Assembly: GCF_023380245.1 (NCBI RefSeq)
Contig: NZ_CP093365.1
Coordinates: 310,001-374,000, forward strand
Direction of reading: 5' to 3'
From: Bombilactobacillus thymidiniphilus
GTDB taxonomy: Bacteria > Bacillota > Bacilli > Lactobacillales > Lactobacillaceae
DNA length: 64,000 bases
Below the pieces are notes generated by a model. It saw only the letters and a program-made list of their open reading frames with translations, searched no databases and was not told where the DNA came from. Shown here one piece after another: positions 38,721-43,484 of this stretch; position 1 is the stretch's first letter, and each line of letters opens with the position of its first letter. Position numbers and translations under genes: made by a program.

Positions 38721-38722
38721 AT

Positions 38723-38753
38723 TTGACTTAATGTCAACTCCAGGTGCTATCAT
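38723..38753 (+). promoter_or_regulatory. Promoter with 19-bp spacer before alcohol dehydrogenase
   Basis: TTGACT (38723-38728) and TATCAT (38748-38753) are 19 bases apart. The spacer holds ACTCCAGG, resembling the right half of operators bound by NmlR/AdhR-type MerR regulators, and TTGAC/GTCAA arms overlap the -35. Overlong spacers are the hallmark of MerR-activated promoters, so induction by aldehyde or metal stress is possible. Confidence 0.45.
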
Positions 38754-38785
38754 ACAAGCAGCTTTTAATGAAAGGGTAGGATAAT

Positions 38786-39823
38786 ATGAAAGCAGCAATG
38801 TTTGTTAAACCTGGGGAAATTAAAATTGTCGAAACGCCGAAACCGCAAATTCAAAGTGCCAATGATGCCATTATCAAAGTTGTGCGCACTTGTGTATGTG
38901 GTTCAGACTTATGGTGGTATCGTGGACTAAACGATCAAGAACCCAACACTTTTGTTGGTCACGAGGCGATTGGAGTCGTCCAAGAAGTGGGCACTAGTGT
39001 TACAAATATTTGTCCTGGGGACTTCGTGATTGTTCCCTTTACGCATGGTTGCGGTAACTGTATTGCTTGCCAAAATGGCTTTGATGGCAATTGCTTAAAT
39101 CAGCAAAACAGTCGTTATAATACAGGTTATCAAGCTGAATATTTACGTTATAATAATGCCGATTGGGGCTTAGTTAAAATTCCTGGTCAGCCTGACGACT
39201 ATAGCACAGAGCAATTAAATTCCTTGCTAGCTTTATCAGATGTCATGGCTACAGGATATCATGCATCCTGTACTGCTGAAGTCCAAAAAGGTGATACAGT
39301 CGTCGTAATTGGTGATGGTGCCGTCGGATTATGCGGCGTGATTGCTGCTAAATTACGTGGTGCGCAACGAATTATTATCATGAGTCGCCACCAAGATCGT
39401 CAAGAACTAGCTATTGAATTTGGCGCTACAGATATTATTGTTGAACGCGGTGATACTGCCGTGCAAAAAGTAATGGATCTAACTGCAGGCGCTGGTGCTG
39501 ATGCAATTTTAGAATGCGTTGGTACTACACAGTCGCTCCAAACAGCGGTGCAAATTGGTTGTCCTGGGGCGCTTGTTGGTCGCGTCGGTGTCCCTCAACA
39601 AGCCCAAATGGATACAGCCCAATTATTTTGGCATAATACGGGCTTACGTGGCGGTATCGCTTCTGTCACGACTTATGACAAAAATATTTTGTTGCAAGCT
39701 GTTTTAGATCAGCGAATTAATCCCGGTAAAGTCTTCACGCAATCATTTAAGTTGACTGATATTCAACAAGCTTATGAAGCTATGGATCAACGTACAGCAA
39801 TTAAATCCTTAATCACTTTCTAA
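38786..39823 (+). CDS. Zinc-dependent alcohol dehydrogenase
   Basis: Medium-chain dehydrogenase/reductase. Catalytic zinc ligands lie in RTCVCGSDLWWYRG (Cys38) and GHEAIGVV (His59, Glu60). The structural zinc cysteines are 89, 92, 95 and 103. The Rossmann motif is VVVIGDGAVGLCGV. It has 345 residues, close to Tdh/glutathione-independent aldehyde-type ADHs. It is a single-gene unit with an unusual promoter and a strong terminator; the substrate is not known. Confidence 0.93.
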   Translation: MKAAMFVKPGEIKIVETPKPQIQSANDAIIKVVRTCVCGSDLWWYRGLNDQEPNTFVGHEAIGVVQEVGTSVTNICPGDFVIVPFTHGCGNCIACQNGFDGNCLNQQNSRYNTGYQAEYLRYNNADWGLVKIPGQPDDYSTEQLNSLLALSDVMATGYHASCTAEVQKGDTVVVIGDGAVGLCGVIAAKLRGAQRIIIMSRHQDRQELAIEFGATDIIVERGDTAVQKVMDLTAGAGADAILECVGTTQSLQTAVQIGCPGALVGRVGVPQQAQMDTAQLFWHNTGLRGGIASVTTYDKNILLQAVLDQRINPGKVFTQSFKLTDIQQAYEAMDQRTAIKSLITF

Positions 39824-39829
39824 AATCTC

Positions 39830-39865
39830 AAAAGCGACGCTCCTAATGAGAACGTCGCTTTTTTT
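39830..39865. terminator. Bidirectional intrinsic terminator
   Basis: AAAAGCGACG pairs with CGTCGCTTTT, extended inside by CTC/GAG, between convergent genes. Confidence 0.9.
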
Positions 39866-40736
39866 ATTTGGCTTCTTGTAAATAAACAATCTTCGTTTCT
39901 ATTGCAAAACCGGATTTTTGATACAGATTTAAAGCTGGTGTATTATCACCAACCACTCCTATCACACACCGCTTCGCCGCTTTTTGTTGCAATTTATCCA
40001 ACATCTGTTGCATAAAGATCGTGCCATAGCCTCGGTGTTGATCTTTTGGAGCAATAAACAAATCAAAAAAGTAATATTCACTCTCCGCATTAATCGCACA
40101 ATAGCCCACAACCTCTGTTCCACGTTGCAACACAAATTGGATAGTCGCAGGATCTTTTAAGCCACTGGTAATATATTTTTGACTAACGACCAAATCATTG
40201 CCAAAAGCTTGCTGTTCCAAAGTGGCAACCATCACAATCTGTTCTGCCTTTAATTCACCAGTCGTTAATTCTGATTGTTCCATCGACCTGTGGCTGTTTT
40301 GAGCTAAGTTCAAACTCAATTGGTATTCTATTTCTGGAATTGTTAACTGTTCATGGGTCAAAAAGGCTGGGTTAGCGTTTAAAAAGTTTTGTTCTGAAAT
40401 ATATTGCCAATGTTGATACCCATATTGTTGCAAAATTATTTTGATAGTCGCAAGCAACTGGCGACCAACACCTTGCCGTCTAAATTGAGGTGCCACATTG
40501 ATATATAAATCAACCATACCTGCTTTAGGTTCTTCATCTGCATAAATCATGGCCATGCCAACCAAGTAATCGGCTTGATAAGCTAATAAAAAAGTAGGCA
40601 TTTCGGCAAAATAATTAAATTGGTTACTTAAATATGGATCGCGAAATGTGTGATCATATTGATGCACGACTTGTAGTAATTCATTGACAGCAGTCGTTTG
40701 TGCTGGATTTAATTTAGTAACACTAGTTATTTGCAT
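39864..40736 (-). CDS. Tandem GNAT acetyltransferase
   Basis: 290 residues carrying two GNAT folds. The first has INVAPQFRRQGVGRQLLATI (about residues 79-98) and the second FIAPKDQHRGYGTIFMQQML (about 224-243) followed by NTPALNLYQKSGF. Both acetyl-CoA loops look functional. Similar double-GNAT proteins act on small amines or peptides; the substrate here is unknown. The ATG has AAAGGGAG. It borders the AT-rich accessory patch. Confidence 0.9.
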   Translation of the reverse strand: MQITSVTKLNPAQTTAVNELLQVVHQYDHTFRDPYLSNQFNYFAEMPTFLLAYQADYLVGMAMIYADEEPKAGMVDLYINVAPQFRRQGVGRQLLATIKIILQQYGYQHWQYISEQNFLNANPAFLTHEQLTIPEIEYQLSLNLAQNSHRSMEQSELTTGELKAEQIVMVATLEQQAFGNDLVVSQKYITSGLKDPATIQFVLQRGTEVVGYCAINAESEYYFFDLFIAPKDQHRGYGTIFMQQMLDKLQQKAAKRCVIGVVGDNTPALNLYQKSGFAIETKIVYLQEAK

Positions 40737-40785
40737 TAGTTATCTCCCTTTATTCAAAAAATAATTAATTATTTTTTGAATTTGT

Positions 40786-41927
40786 TCACAAAAAAATAAA
40801 ATAAAGTATCAATGTTAAACTAGTAGCCAGTATTCCAGTAAAGATAAATATATATTCAACTTTAAAAAGCGAAAACAAAGCCGTTATTAAAGCAGTTTCA
40901 AAAAACATTAAACAAGCGGTTAAAGTATTAACACTAGATATCAAGGATGTCCTTATCTTATCGTTAGATAAATCTTGAATTACAACATTTAGTGAAGTAT
41001 CAACAAATTCAAAGCCACATTGTAATAAAATTACTGCACTAAATAATATTATATAAATATTTGTTTTTAATATTAAAAAAGCTCCAAGTACCAATACCAA
41101 CGAAGTTTTTATTGCTTTCTGTGCTCCAAAAACACCAGATACTTTACCGATTGATAATGAAGTAAAAGCTGAAAAAGCTAAAGCCACTGTTAAAACAATA
41201 GAGATTTGAAAAGGTGAAAAATGCTTTTCACTTAAAAATAATTGTAAAAAATTAACTAAAACTGATATTGTACTTTGAAATAATGAAATAGTAATGACCA
41301 GTACACTAATTTTCCTGATTTTTAGAGTATTGAATAATTCCTTAATTATCTTAGACACACTATTCTTTTCAAAATCAGAACTGGAACTAATAGTAGTTAA
41401 GTCCAAGAGATATAATATTAGCGCCGCGAAAGCTTGCGTAATAATTTCAATAATAAATATTGATTACCATGATATGGTAGTTAAATATCCGCCGACTAAA
41501 GAACTACACATCTGCGCAAAGATAGTTAAAAATTCAAATAATCCTATTTTGTATTTGTAGCTTTTTTCAGAATCTATTTGAAATAATAAAGTCTGATCAC
41601 TCCCAGAAATTAGTGAAAGGCCAACACCATAAAAAATAAAACCACAGATCAAAGAAAAATAACCCAAATTAAGTAACATCAACACTAAATAAACAACAAT
41701 AAATCCATGCCCTAAAAGCATTACTAACTTAGAGCCTAATTTATCAGTTAGAATTCCAGATGGTAATTCAAATAAAAACATTGCCAAAGTAAGAATAGTC
41801 TGTAAAGCGCCAATTTGAAATGCATTATAACTAAATTTTTTAAATAATTTATCCAAATCGAACGTTCAAAAAATAATGCAGCTACAAATGCATATAAATA
41901 TATATTACTTTTATTTATTCTAAGCAT
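40786..41927 (-). pseudogene. Broken MFS transporter
   Basis: A 12-helix major facilitator gene with two lesions. From ATG 41927 the first membrane helix (NIYLYAFVAALFFERSIWINYL) is read in one frame. At a six-A run (41836-41841) the frame shifts by -1 to KKFSYNAFQIGALQTILTLAMFLFELPSGILTDKLGSKL. A single in-frame TAA (41464-41466) then splits the protein after residue TTISW, and reading resumes as SIFIIEIITQAF to the end at 40786. It starts nine bases after the ABC-GNAT gene and was probably its operon partner. One extra A would repair the first lesion. Confidence 0.82.
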
Positions 41928-41936
41928 TACTCTTTT

Positions 41937-43232
41937 TTATAAATTTCCTTTTCTATTATCGTAAAAATATTCTTTCATGTTAATCGGATATATAACATCT
42001 TTTATTAATTCTATATCATCAACATAAAAAGTATCTTCAGCTACATTCAAGAAAAAAGATTGATTAATTAATACAGGACTCCCAATAATAGTACAATAAT
42101 TTATATAGTCCTTATACATCAATTTGCTTAAATAATTAACACCTTTTTGCCATGCTTTATGACTTTTAGAATTTAAAGATTGCATTGTTTGAATAAAATC
42201 ACTATCATTTCCAAAATAATGATAATGATTCTCCTTCATATTTAATTTATTCAAAAAAGGATGATATAAAGACATTGCACTCCTTACAAAAATAACCTTT
42301 TTTTCATTCTGTAAAATTTTTAAAAATAATAGCTTGGTTGCACCAATTCCCCGGATTTGTGGGTGTATAATTATCCTAGAAATTTTCCTCAAATTGGAAT
42401 TTATATTTTTAAGCGATACTTCAGAAACATTATTAGGATAAGGATAACTAGTAACAGCAACACCCAAAATTTTGTTTTTATATTTTAAACAATAATACTT
42501 ACCACCGTATCTTTCTAAAGTATCACAAGTAGGGTTGTCAAAATAATGATACTGTTCAAAAGGAATTATATCATCATAAGAACCATTAACCACCTCAATA
42601 TCACTACTAAATGGATAGTTACCTCCATCATGGTTGTTTTTAATAATACTGATTTTGGAAAATTCATTTAATTTGACATGCACATCTGGCTGTAAATATT
42701 TTTCTAAATCGTCATTTGTAGTAATAACAACAATTGAAAGTTCACTTTTTCGAATTACTTTCTGTAAATTATAACTAACTATTTGAGCAGTATCTCTATC
42801 TAAAAATGAAGTGAACTCATCTATTAATACTTTTGAAACTCCACTTAAAAGTATCTGTGCCAAATAATATCTAAATTGTTGCCCAGTAGACAAATTTTCG
42901 TAGGGAGTAAGGTACAAATAAGCCTCAGACAGACCCACCATATTTAAGTAGTATAGAGATTTTTCAAAAGGCACATTCAAACTCTCAATAATTGGTATTT
43001 CATTTTCTACTTTTAACGGTACCTTTGAATATCCATATCTTTTTTCAATTGTTCTTCCAATTAATGACTTTCCAGAACCTGAAGGACCACTTATGCAAGT
43101 TATTTGGGCATCTTTTATTAAATCTAAATTAACATCATCATAAATTATTCGTTCTGAATTTGTAATTCCAAACATGTTTTGAATTTTTTTTACATAACTA
43201 GATGAAGAATCTAAATCTACCTTTTTTTTCAT
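41937..43232 (-). CDS. ABC-type ATPase fused to GNAT domain
   Basis: A soluble 431-residue fusion resembling COG2401 proteins (ABC ATPase joined to a predicted acetyltransferase), whose role is not established. Residues 1-195 are an ABC cassette: Walker A GPSGSGKS (49-56), signature LSTGQ (114-118), Walker B KVLIDEF (134-140), D-loop SFLD. The H-loop position reads ITTN, without His. Residues about 220-350 are GNAT-like with IIIHPQIRGIGATKLLFL (287-304). A further 80 residues follow. No membrane segments. GAGG precedes the ATG by eight bases. The AT-rich composition suggests transfer. Its neighbour is a broken MFS gene. Confidence 0.82.
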   Translation of the reverse strand: MKKKVDLDSSSSYVKKIQNMFGITNSERIIYDDVNLDLIKDAQITCISGPSGSGKSLIGRTIEKRYGYSKVPLKVENEIPIIESLNVPFEKSLYYLNMVGLSEAYLYLTPYENLSTGQQFRYYLAQILLSGVSKVLIDEFTSFLDRDTAQIVSYNLQKVIRKSELSIVVITTNDDLEKYLQPDVHVKLNEFSKISIIKNNHDGGNYPFSSDIEVVNGSYDDIIPFEQYHYFDNPTCDTLERYGGKYYCLKYKNKILGVAVTSYPYPNNVSEVSLKNINSNLRKISRIIIHPQIRGIGATKLLFLKILQNEKKVIFVRSAMSLYHPFLNKLNMKENHYHYFGNDSDFIQTMQSLNSKSHKAWQKGVNYLSKLMYKDYINYCTIIGSPVLINQSFFLNVAEDTFYVDDIELIKDVIYPINMKEYFYDNRKGNL

Positions 43233-43421
43233 AATCTAACCTCTAATTATTTTATACTCATCATTTTTATTGATAAAAAAGTAAATATCATTTCTTAGTT
43301 TACTTTTGAAATAGTGAAATATATTCCCTATGGGGATTATGTTCGAATGGTTAATCAAGAATAAATTCAATAATTTTTGATTATCATAACTTATTATGAT
43401 TAATTTCTTTTAAATTAAACC

Positions 43422-43452
43422 AAAAAAAGTCTAAACCTAATTGGTTTAGACT
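43422..43452 (-). terminator. Terminator of gpmA
   Basis: Minus-strand AGTCTAAACC and GGTTTAGACT enclose AATTA and are followed by seven T residues, 33 bases past the gpmA stop. It also insulates the accessory patch from gpmA transcription. Confidence 0.9.
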
Positions 43453-43484
43453 AAATTCAATATAGATGAAACTAATATCTTTGA

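Follow-up and report, generated by a model that had tools for sequence, protein, structure and literature searches.

An intact ABC-GNAT fusion gene among the remnants of a putative ThiF-type peptide cluster in a Bombilactobacillus chromosome

The question raised by this locus is why a gene for an ABC ATPase fused to a GNAT-like domain stands intact in a patch of AT-rich DNA beside a broken exporter gene. The window, meaning the whole stretch of DNA that was analysed, comprises 64,000 nucleotides of Bombilactobacillus thymidiniphilus. The preliminary description of the gene regarded it as the best candidate for an undescribed system in the window and proposed self-protection, RNA or protein modification, or defence against phages as its role. 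The features of the gene are as follows:

41937-43232, minus strand: ABC-GNAT fusion protein, 431 aa, a single intact open frame
42630-43232, minus strand: ABC ATPase domain, residues 1-201, from Pfam ABC_tran and structure matches
42714-42716, minus strand: H-loop position, N173 instead of His in the family alignment; also N in the homologue from genome G881
42231-42605, minus strand: GNAT domain, residues about 210-334, with HY at 229-230 and HPxxRGxG at 290-297, from structure matches and motif counts
42336-42353, minus strand: CoA-binding loop RGIGAT, shortened by one residue relative to the other members in the family alignment
41940-42230, minus strand: C-terminal tail, residues about 335-431, common to part of the family (alignments A1, A3 and A7)

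The first half of the protein is a complete ABC cassette, as had been claimed, with GPSGSGKS at 49-56 (Walker A), LSTGQ at 114-118, IDE at 137-139 and LDR at 144-146. Pfam ABC_tran matches above threshold (1.1e-6), and structure comparison of the domain with MalK and MJ0796 gave Z 15-16. Motifs were counted in the 134 of 186 profile hits that spanned both domains with at least 90 bits which, together with the window protein, made 135 rows; G49, K55, L114, S115, G117, D138 and E139 are invariant in all of them. The H-loop histidine was correctly reported as missing, since residue 173 is Asn in the window protein alone whereas the other 134 of the 135 full-length family members, window protein counted, have His. 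This histidine matters for hydrolysis in ABC proteins. The possibility that the protein is a subunit of an ABC transporter was rejected because Pfam, run on the protein and on three neighbouring frames, recognises no ABC permease, and the adjoining MFS protein is a secondary transporter.

The GNAT part is unproven by sequence alone because its match to Pfam Acetyltransf_1 lies below threshold (E 0.05; 14.3 vs 20.7 bits). Structure prediction supported the domain. An AlphaFold2 model of the whole protein, built from a 15-row alignment (pLDDT 69, pTM 0.62), is weak in the tail (pLDDT <50 at 336-356 and 358-418), and its second half matches the GNAT structure 1y9k with Z 14.1 and an rmsd of 2.9 over 130 aligned residues. 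When the C-terminal 227 residues were modelled alone (43 rows, pLDDT 75, pTM 0.62), comparison with 1y9k, RimI and other GNATs gave Z 13-14.5, and the top Foldseek match was human Naa60 (E 6.6e-6). Because both models match GNAT structures, the fold stands, and the predicted structures show that the C-terminal half is a GNAT domain. In the family alignment this part retains H229, Y230, R286, P291, R294 and G297. R294 and G297 belong to the acyl-CoA loop (R/QxxGxG/A), which is one residue short; the window protein and one other row have a gap at the absent column, which the remaining 133 of the 135 rows fill. What had been called an uncharacterised 80-residue tail can be aligned with the tails of viral and archaeal relatives. 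Judging by the aligned ranges, the GNAT sheet is probably completed by the last strand of the C-terminal model (residues 420-425), which lies in this tail.

Judged by its sequence, the protein belongs to an ABC-GNAT family that is largely viral and common in viruses of bacteria and archaea; within it the protein is divergent and encoded on a chromosome. The best PHROGs profile, phrog_11143 (function unknown), matches at 9.5e-37 over residues 6-337 and so spans both domains, and tblastn matched 78 phage records, every one at less than 60% identity. One phage relative carries the annotation 'MK0520 protein, ABC-type ATPase fused to a predicted acetyltransferase domain'. This annotation makes the proposed likeness to COG2401 plausible; a search for COG2401 in the open literature found nothing useful. 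The ABC-GNAT loci L034-L068 lie mostly on contigs titled Candidatus Bathyarchaeota, and on several Planctomycetes contigs (L069, L070, L072-L074, L078, L079, L081) the GNAT half is a frame separate from the ABC half.

The surroundings of the gene in the window consist of a variable block with two broken neighbours:

38721-43484: variable block between kup and gpm, with adh, a tandem GNAT gene, the MFS remnant, the ABC-GNAT gene and the SBP remnant
40786-41927, minus strand: broken MFS exporter gene, with a frameshift near 41840 and an in-frame stop at 41464-41466
43236-43370, minus strand: 3' end of an SBP-like gene, a remnant immediately before the ABC-GNAT start, missed by the preliminary description

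The block, likewise overlooked in the preliminary description, is missing in four of the five congeners examined (G006 left out), and the fifth carries 2.8 kb of other DNA in its place. The sharply deviating composition noted earlier was confirmed, as the ABC-GNAT gene has a GC of 0.269 (GC3 0.183) vs 0.35-0.43 in 11 other nearby genes; the two MFS fragments (GC 0.26-0.29) belong to the same AT-rich patch. The MFS gene, which starts 9 nt downstream of the ABC-GNAT stop, is indeed the broken partner exporter that had been described. The SBP remnant lies in the 252 bases between the ABC-GNAT gene and gpm and stops 3 bases before the ABC-GNAT start.

Where these pieces came from is suggested by the sole close homologue, which a profile search with the C-terminal halves in 395 genomes of the own order found in G881, a genome of another family of that order (46% identity over 331-333 aa, 4e-96). 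The same kind of search found the gene in only its own genome among 397 of the own family, with no match in six congeners. A search of the class returned one of 398 genomes, again the own genome, and searches in the family of G881 (A6, 18 genomes) and in its genus (1/3 genomes) returned G881. Single-sequence scans of genome and viral collections gained nothing further. The full-protein genome searches scored few candidates per genome (4 each; up to 17 each), so misses are possible there, while nearly all candidates were scored in the C-terminal-half searches.

The window and G881 proteins form a clade with support 100/100 and a stem branch of 2.27 in a 48-row tree; the tree program flagged long branches and unusual composition. 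G881 shares LSTGQ, the H-loop Asn and the shortened CoA loop with the window protein. The latter two traits predate the split of the pair because they are common to both, and for this reason they were rejected as signs of fresh decay. The G881 gene is itself interrupted by one in-frame TGA at codon 45. Over 331 codons the two genes differ by a dN of about 0.45 and a dS of about 1.7, which is near saturation; the low dN/dS fits long selection for an open frame, mostly before decay, and is silent on the present.

In G881 the gene belongs to a cluster that lies on one strand in the order 15-codon ORF, ThiF, SBP-like, ABC-GNAT, PepF-like, MFS and GNAT. The ORF (15 aa, MEIEREDVREMIERS) has a GGAGG ribosome site. 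The ThiF protein (311 aa, Pfam 6e-43) has about 95 residues preceding the ThiF domain; the SBP_bac_5-like protein (432 aa, 8e-7) is under the Pfam cut-off; the PepF-like protein (560 aa) matches TIGR00181 at 1.4e-45, far below the cut-off, and draws a blank in Pfam. The MFS and GNAT proteins match at 2e-40 and 4e-8. The SBP-like and ABC-GNAT genes abut, and the window retains part of this order in ruins: the 3' SBP remnant, the ABC-GNAT gene and the broken MFS gene. The SBP remnant shares 41% identity over 39 aa with the end of the SBP-like protein of G881 (E 0.009 when tblastn covers the whole window), and its local score of 77 exceeds the highest scores of 400 base shuffles (51) and of 211 other tiles of the window (50). 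The window MFS protein is 47% identical to that of the G881 cluster. The loci of the window and of G881 share a common origin, for which this evidence is sufficient; for function it is insufficient.

The rest of the cluster has gone from the window. No ThiF, PepF-like or precursor sequence was recognised in the window, nor any short ORF of the EM..R(S/T) type described below. The own genome contains no cluster-type ThiF, the best match being a 252-aa frame with 27% identity and E 1.8e-15; the SBP matches there are frames of 540 and 551 aa (E 0.002-0.007). The tandem GNAT gene of the block (39864-40736) has host-like GC and no match at E 1e-30 in six congeners. It was considered as a further remnant and rejected on that composition and on its 20% identity (E 0.36) to the G881 GNAT.

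Searches of plasmids with the ThiF and PepF-like proteins led to seven further ThiF loci (L206-L212), found on Lactiplantibacillus plantarum pLL441-1, in Lactococcus garvieae and on two Staphylococcus aureus plasmids, the remaining ones being from Lactococcus lactis, Enterococcus faecalis and Sporosarcina. By sequence matches to the G881 proteins, ThiF is present in all seven, a PepF-like or M3 protein in five (L206, L207 across the plasmid origin, L208, L211 and L212) and an SBP-like protein in three (L208, L210 and L212). L206 and L207 have a protein with the size and place of the SBP-like one; Pfam SBP_bac_5 is above cut-off in the L208 counterpart, below it in L207 and finds nothing in L206. 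L211 is built differently, with an annotated M3 metallopeptidase before ThiF and an ABC transporter after it, and in L209 and L212 a series of small frames follows ThiF. Zinc peptidases of the PepF kind have the motif HExxH. The PepF-like proteins of G881, L. plantarum (L206) and S. aureus (L208), the three examined, read HExxG instead, hence the label pseudo-peptidase. Of the eight ThiF loci, those of G881, S. aureus (L208) and L. lactis (L209) have a separate acetyltransferase gene, and L. plantarum (L206) has a methyltransferase in place of one. The ABC-GNAT gene is present at none of the seven loci (tblastn at 1e-3), and a plasmid search for more cluster members with it found none.

Short ATG ORFs that end in EM..R(S/T) plus at most two residues occur at six loci (L201, L206, L207, L208, L209 and L212), where each precedes ThiF by 100-220 bases; the 2.31 Mb scanned contain no others. 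The motif itself was chosen with the peptides already in view. These amount to five distinct peptides, because L212 repeats the peptide of L208; four of the five read REMxxR(S/T), and the ends are S or T with one TLF. The peptide of pLL441-1 is MLVDEKETREMHRRTLF. At the E. faecalis locus there is a 25-aa ORF that ends in VERT and falls outside the motif. From their sequences and positions the short ORFs are read as candidate RiPP precursors with a C-terminal Ser or Thr, and three plasmid loci are candidate clusters, each with an MFS, methyltransferase or GNAT gene nearby:

L206:7872-13850 (pLL441-1): REMxxR(T/S) ORF, ThiF, SBP-like, PepF-like
L207:5896-8664: REMxxR(T/S) ORF, ThiF, SBP-like, PepF-like
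L208:7870-12680: REMxxR(T/S) ORF, ThiF, SBP-like, PepF-like

Loci of this ThiF/SBP-like/pseudo-PepF/REMxxR(T/S) type on lactobacillus, lactococcus and staphylococcus plasmids represent a candidate RiPP class for which no description was found in the open literature.

Taken together, the data favour, with some confidence, the reading that the ABC-GNAT gene was recruited from the viral family into a ThiF-type RiPP cluster and survives in a decayed copy of that cluster as an acyltransferase for tailoring or self-immunity. In such a cluster ThiF would adenylate the C-terminal Ser or Thr of the short peptide. Without the H-loop His, the ABC domain would probably serve as an ATP-binding clamp that positions the substrate more than as a fast ATPase. 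The GNAT domain would then transfer acyl from acyl-CoA, the usual reaction of its superfamily, to the peptide or to a nucleotide joined to the peptide. This acylation would serve either for tailoring or for immunity, in which processed product is disarmed within the producing cell in the manner of MccE in microcin C; the MFS protein would export the peptide product. That three of the eight loci with ThiF have a separate acetyltransferase gene tips the balance slightly towards immunity over tailoring. Of the roles proposed at the outset, self-protection or modification gains support from the G881 cluster and the window remnants, with the product of the cluster as the likely target.

Several observations speak against the cluster reading. 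A single cluster with an ABC-GNAT gene was found (G881), and there the gene is cut by a stop; no locus was seen with both an intact cluster and an intact ABC-GNAT gene. The lack of ABC-GNAT at the seven plasmid loci, the methyltransferase of L206, the want of a cluster-type ThiF in the own genome and the warnings on the tree point the same way. The window MFS protein is also as close or closer to MFS genes of three own-family genomes (47-64% identity by fragment), and no other cluster gene lies alongside those genes. This led to rejection of a fixed MFS and ABC-GNAT pair. The homologous MFS gene of one own-family genome (G509, L191:6605-7733) is split as well, with two frames and one stop, so the exporter seems to decay repeatedly.

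With precursor, ThiF and PepF-like genes gone from the window and the exporter broken, the window protein makes nothing with its old partners, and today it is either an orphan immunity gene or a gene that has not yet decayed. That it has no present function, being part of a dead cluster and merely without a stop so far, is a serious contender at somewhat less than an even chance, and it is compatible with the preferred account of the past role. The twice-broken MFS gene, the truncated SBP gene, the missing partners in the window, the lack of a cluster-type ThiF in the genome, the interrupted G881 copy and the single match among 397 own-family genomes all agree with it. However, the frame of 1296 bases is open next to an MFS gene with two lesions, and the catalytic-motif residues are kept except for the two clade traits. 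The protein departs at 11 of 55 family-conserved columns plus the gap, fewer than the 17-22 at which six phage rows depart. The low dN/dS also points away from loss of function, though it mostly reflects time before decay. Orphan immunity would explain an intact frame in a dead cluster and chance would explain it too; two lesions vs none is weak evidence.

Another explanation is that the protein still acylates a DNA nucleobase, a Mom-like marking of DNA, and is a stranded phage or plasmid gene with incidental neighbours. A passage of a jumbo-phage review predicts that GNAT coupled with an ABC ATPase makes an uncharacterised acyl modification of a DNA base (PMC7824862). Because this prediction is published, the family is not undescribed, contrary to the earlier suggestion; its chemistry is predicted, and no biochemistry or measurements of it were found in the open literature. 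A survey of neighbourhoods, one of the checks proposed for the gene with MFS, biosynthetic or defence partners in mind, gave ParB-like and terminase genes beside phage relatives, and the ThiF cluster with its MFS gene in G881. An annotated ParB-like gene lies directly upstream in five of the nine phage records fetched (L002, L003, L004, L006 and L011) and is absent there in the other four (L005, L009, L010 and L012). Phages with the ABC-GNAT gene directly after a ParB-like gene are Leptospira LE3, Rhodococcus/Gordonia Jace, Pasteurella Pmp13 and Gordonia NHagos; in Escherichia phage Cyrano a pair of ParB genes is followed by ABC and GNAT as separate genes. In the A1 viral scan one protein cluster was present at 12 of 20 loci, and all three members tested were terminases. 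These neighbours favour action on DNA, as do the retained H229, Y230, R286, P291, R294 and G297. However, neither ParB nor terminase was recognised among the neighbours of the gene in the window, the closest homologue sits in a ThiF cluster of which the window carries remnants, and the long stem branch sets the window/G881 clade apart. DNA acylation by the window protein is therefore considered unlikely.

A separate observation in the family concerns one gene cluster found 3' of the ABC-GNAT gene at four loci, in two same-phylum genomes and two viral contigs, with Amidoligase_2 in both of the members tested:

L007:2968-3810: Amidoligase_2-cluster gene
L008:194-1033: Amidoligase_2-cluster gene
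L015:3645-4517: Amidoligase_2-cluster gene
L022:9459-10322: Amidoligase_2-cluster gene

Such a neighbour hints at an amino-acid-containing modification in that branch of the family.

A more specific version of the cluster reading, which we regard as a long shot, is that a viral nucleobase-acyltransferase was domesticated to act on a peptide-nucleotide. The product would be a Trojan-horse peptide with its C-terminal Thr or Ser joined to a nucleotide, mimicking threonyl- or seryl-adenylate. The ABC-GNAT protein would complete or disarm this product by acylating its base or amino acid, and the peptide would be held in the producer by the SBP-like and pseudo-PepF proteins. If true, the cluster would represent a new class of RiPP, and the chemistry of the viral ABC-GNAT family as a whole would come to light. 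A role in anti-phage defence, also suggested earlier, is very improbable: the gene lies in a genome-variable AT-rich insertion and PADLOC, run on the ABC-GNAT protein only, gave matches to the MADS components mad3 (3.5e-10) and mad8 (3.5e-5), but these are partial and confined to the ABC part (stretches 110-189 and 31-64), phages themselves carry relatives, and the nearest homologue is in a ThiF cluster.

The viral ABC-GNAT family and ThiF peptides are each known, and in the open papers searched their meeting was not found described; passages of papers on BREX, Dnd and azole RiPPs do not deal with this protein. Returning to the acyltransferase of a ThiF-peptide cluster, the value of this reading is that the question of acyl transfer becomes testable, because a family member is tied to a short ribosomal peptide of measurable mass.

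Compared with known systems, the window protein agrees with the phrog_11143 family in ABC-then-GNAT order, profile match, motifs and, in one branch, the C-terminal tail. It differs in being chromosomal, lacking a recognised ParB or terminase neighbour, having Asn in the H-loop and a CoA loop one residue shorter, and in that its nearest kin lies in a ThiF cluster. TmcA and NAT10, which act on RNA cytidine, likewise join an ATPase to a GNAT domain, and both are among the Foldseek matches of the GNAT model. However, these matches reflect the GNAT fold, and the ATPase of TmcA and NAT10 is helicase-like, not ABC.

The ThiF-RiPPs of Gram-positive bacteria, as described in passages on the enterofaecin and GRC types (PMC12250964) and the ind cluster (PMC12150305), mention no ABC-GNAT, SBP-like protein or REMxxR(T/S) precursor. 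They share with the G881-type loci a short precursor with a ThiF-like adenylyltransferase, an accessory peptidase, a transporter and an N-terminal stretch before the ThiF domain, which in known ThiF enzymes holds a recognition element. Microcin C (MccB, MccC, MccE) differs in that the short ORFs of G881 and of the plasmids have S, T or TLF at their ends instead of Asn, the SBP-like and PepF-like proteins are extra, ABC-GNAT is not MccE, and the window is without ThiF and precursor, its exporter MFS being there but broken. The ThiF, MFS and GNAT genes of the G881 cluster nevertheless have their counterparts in microcin C, where the GNAT domain of MccE, in the sections consulted of PMC7157772 and PMC12250964, acetylates the processed toxin and so protects the producer. 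The two appear to share a logic of short ribosomal peptide, adenylation, export and immunity by acetylation.
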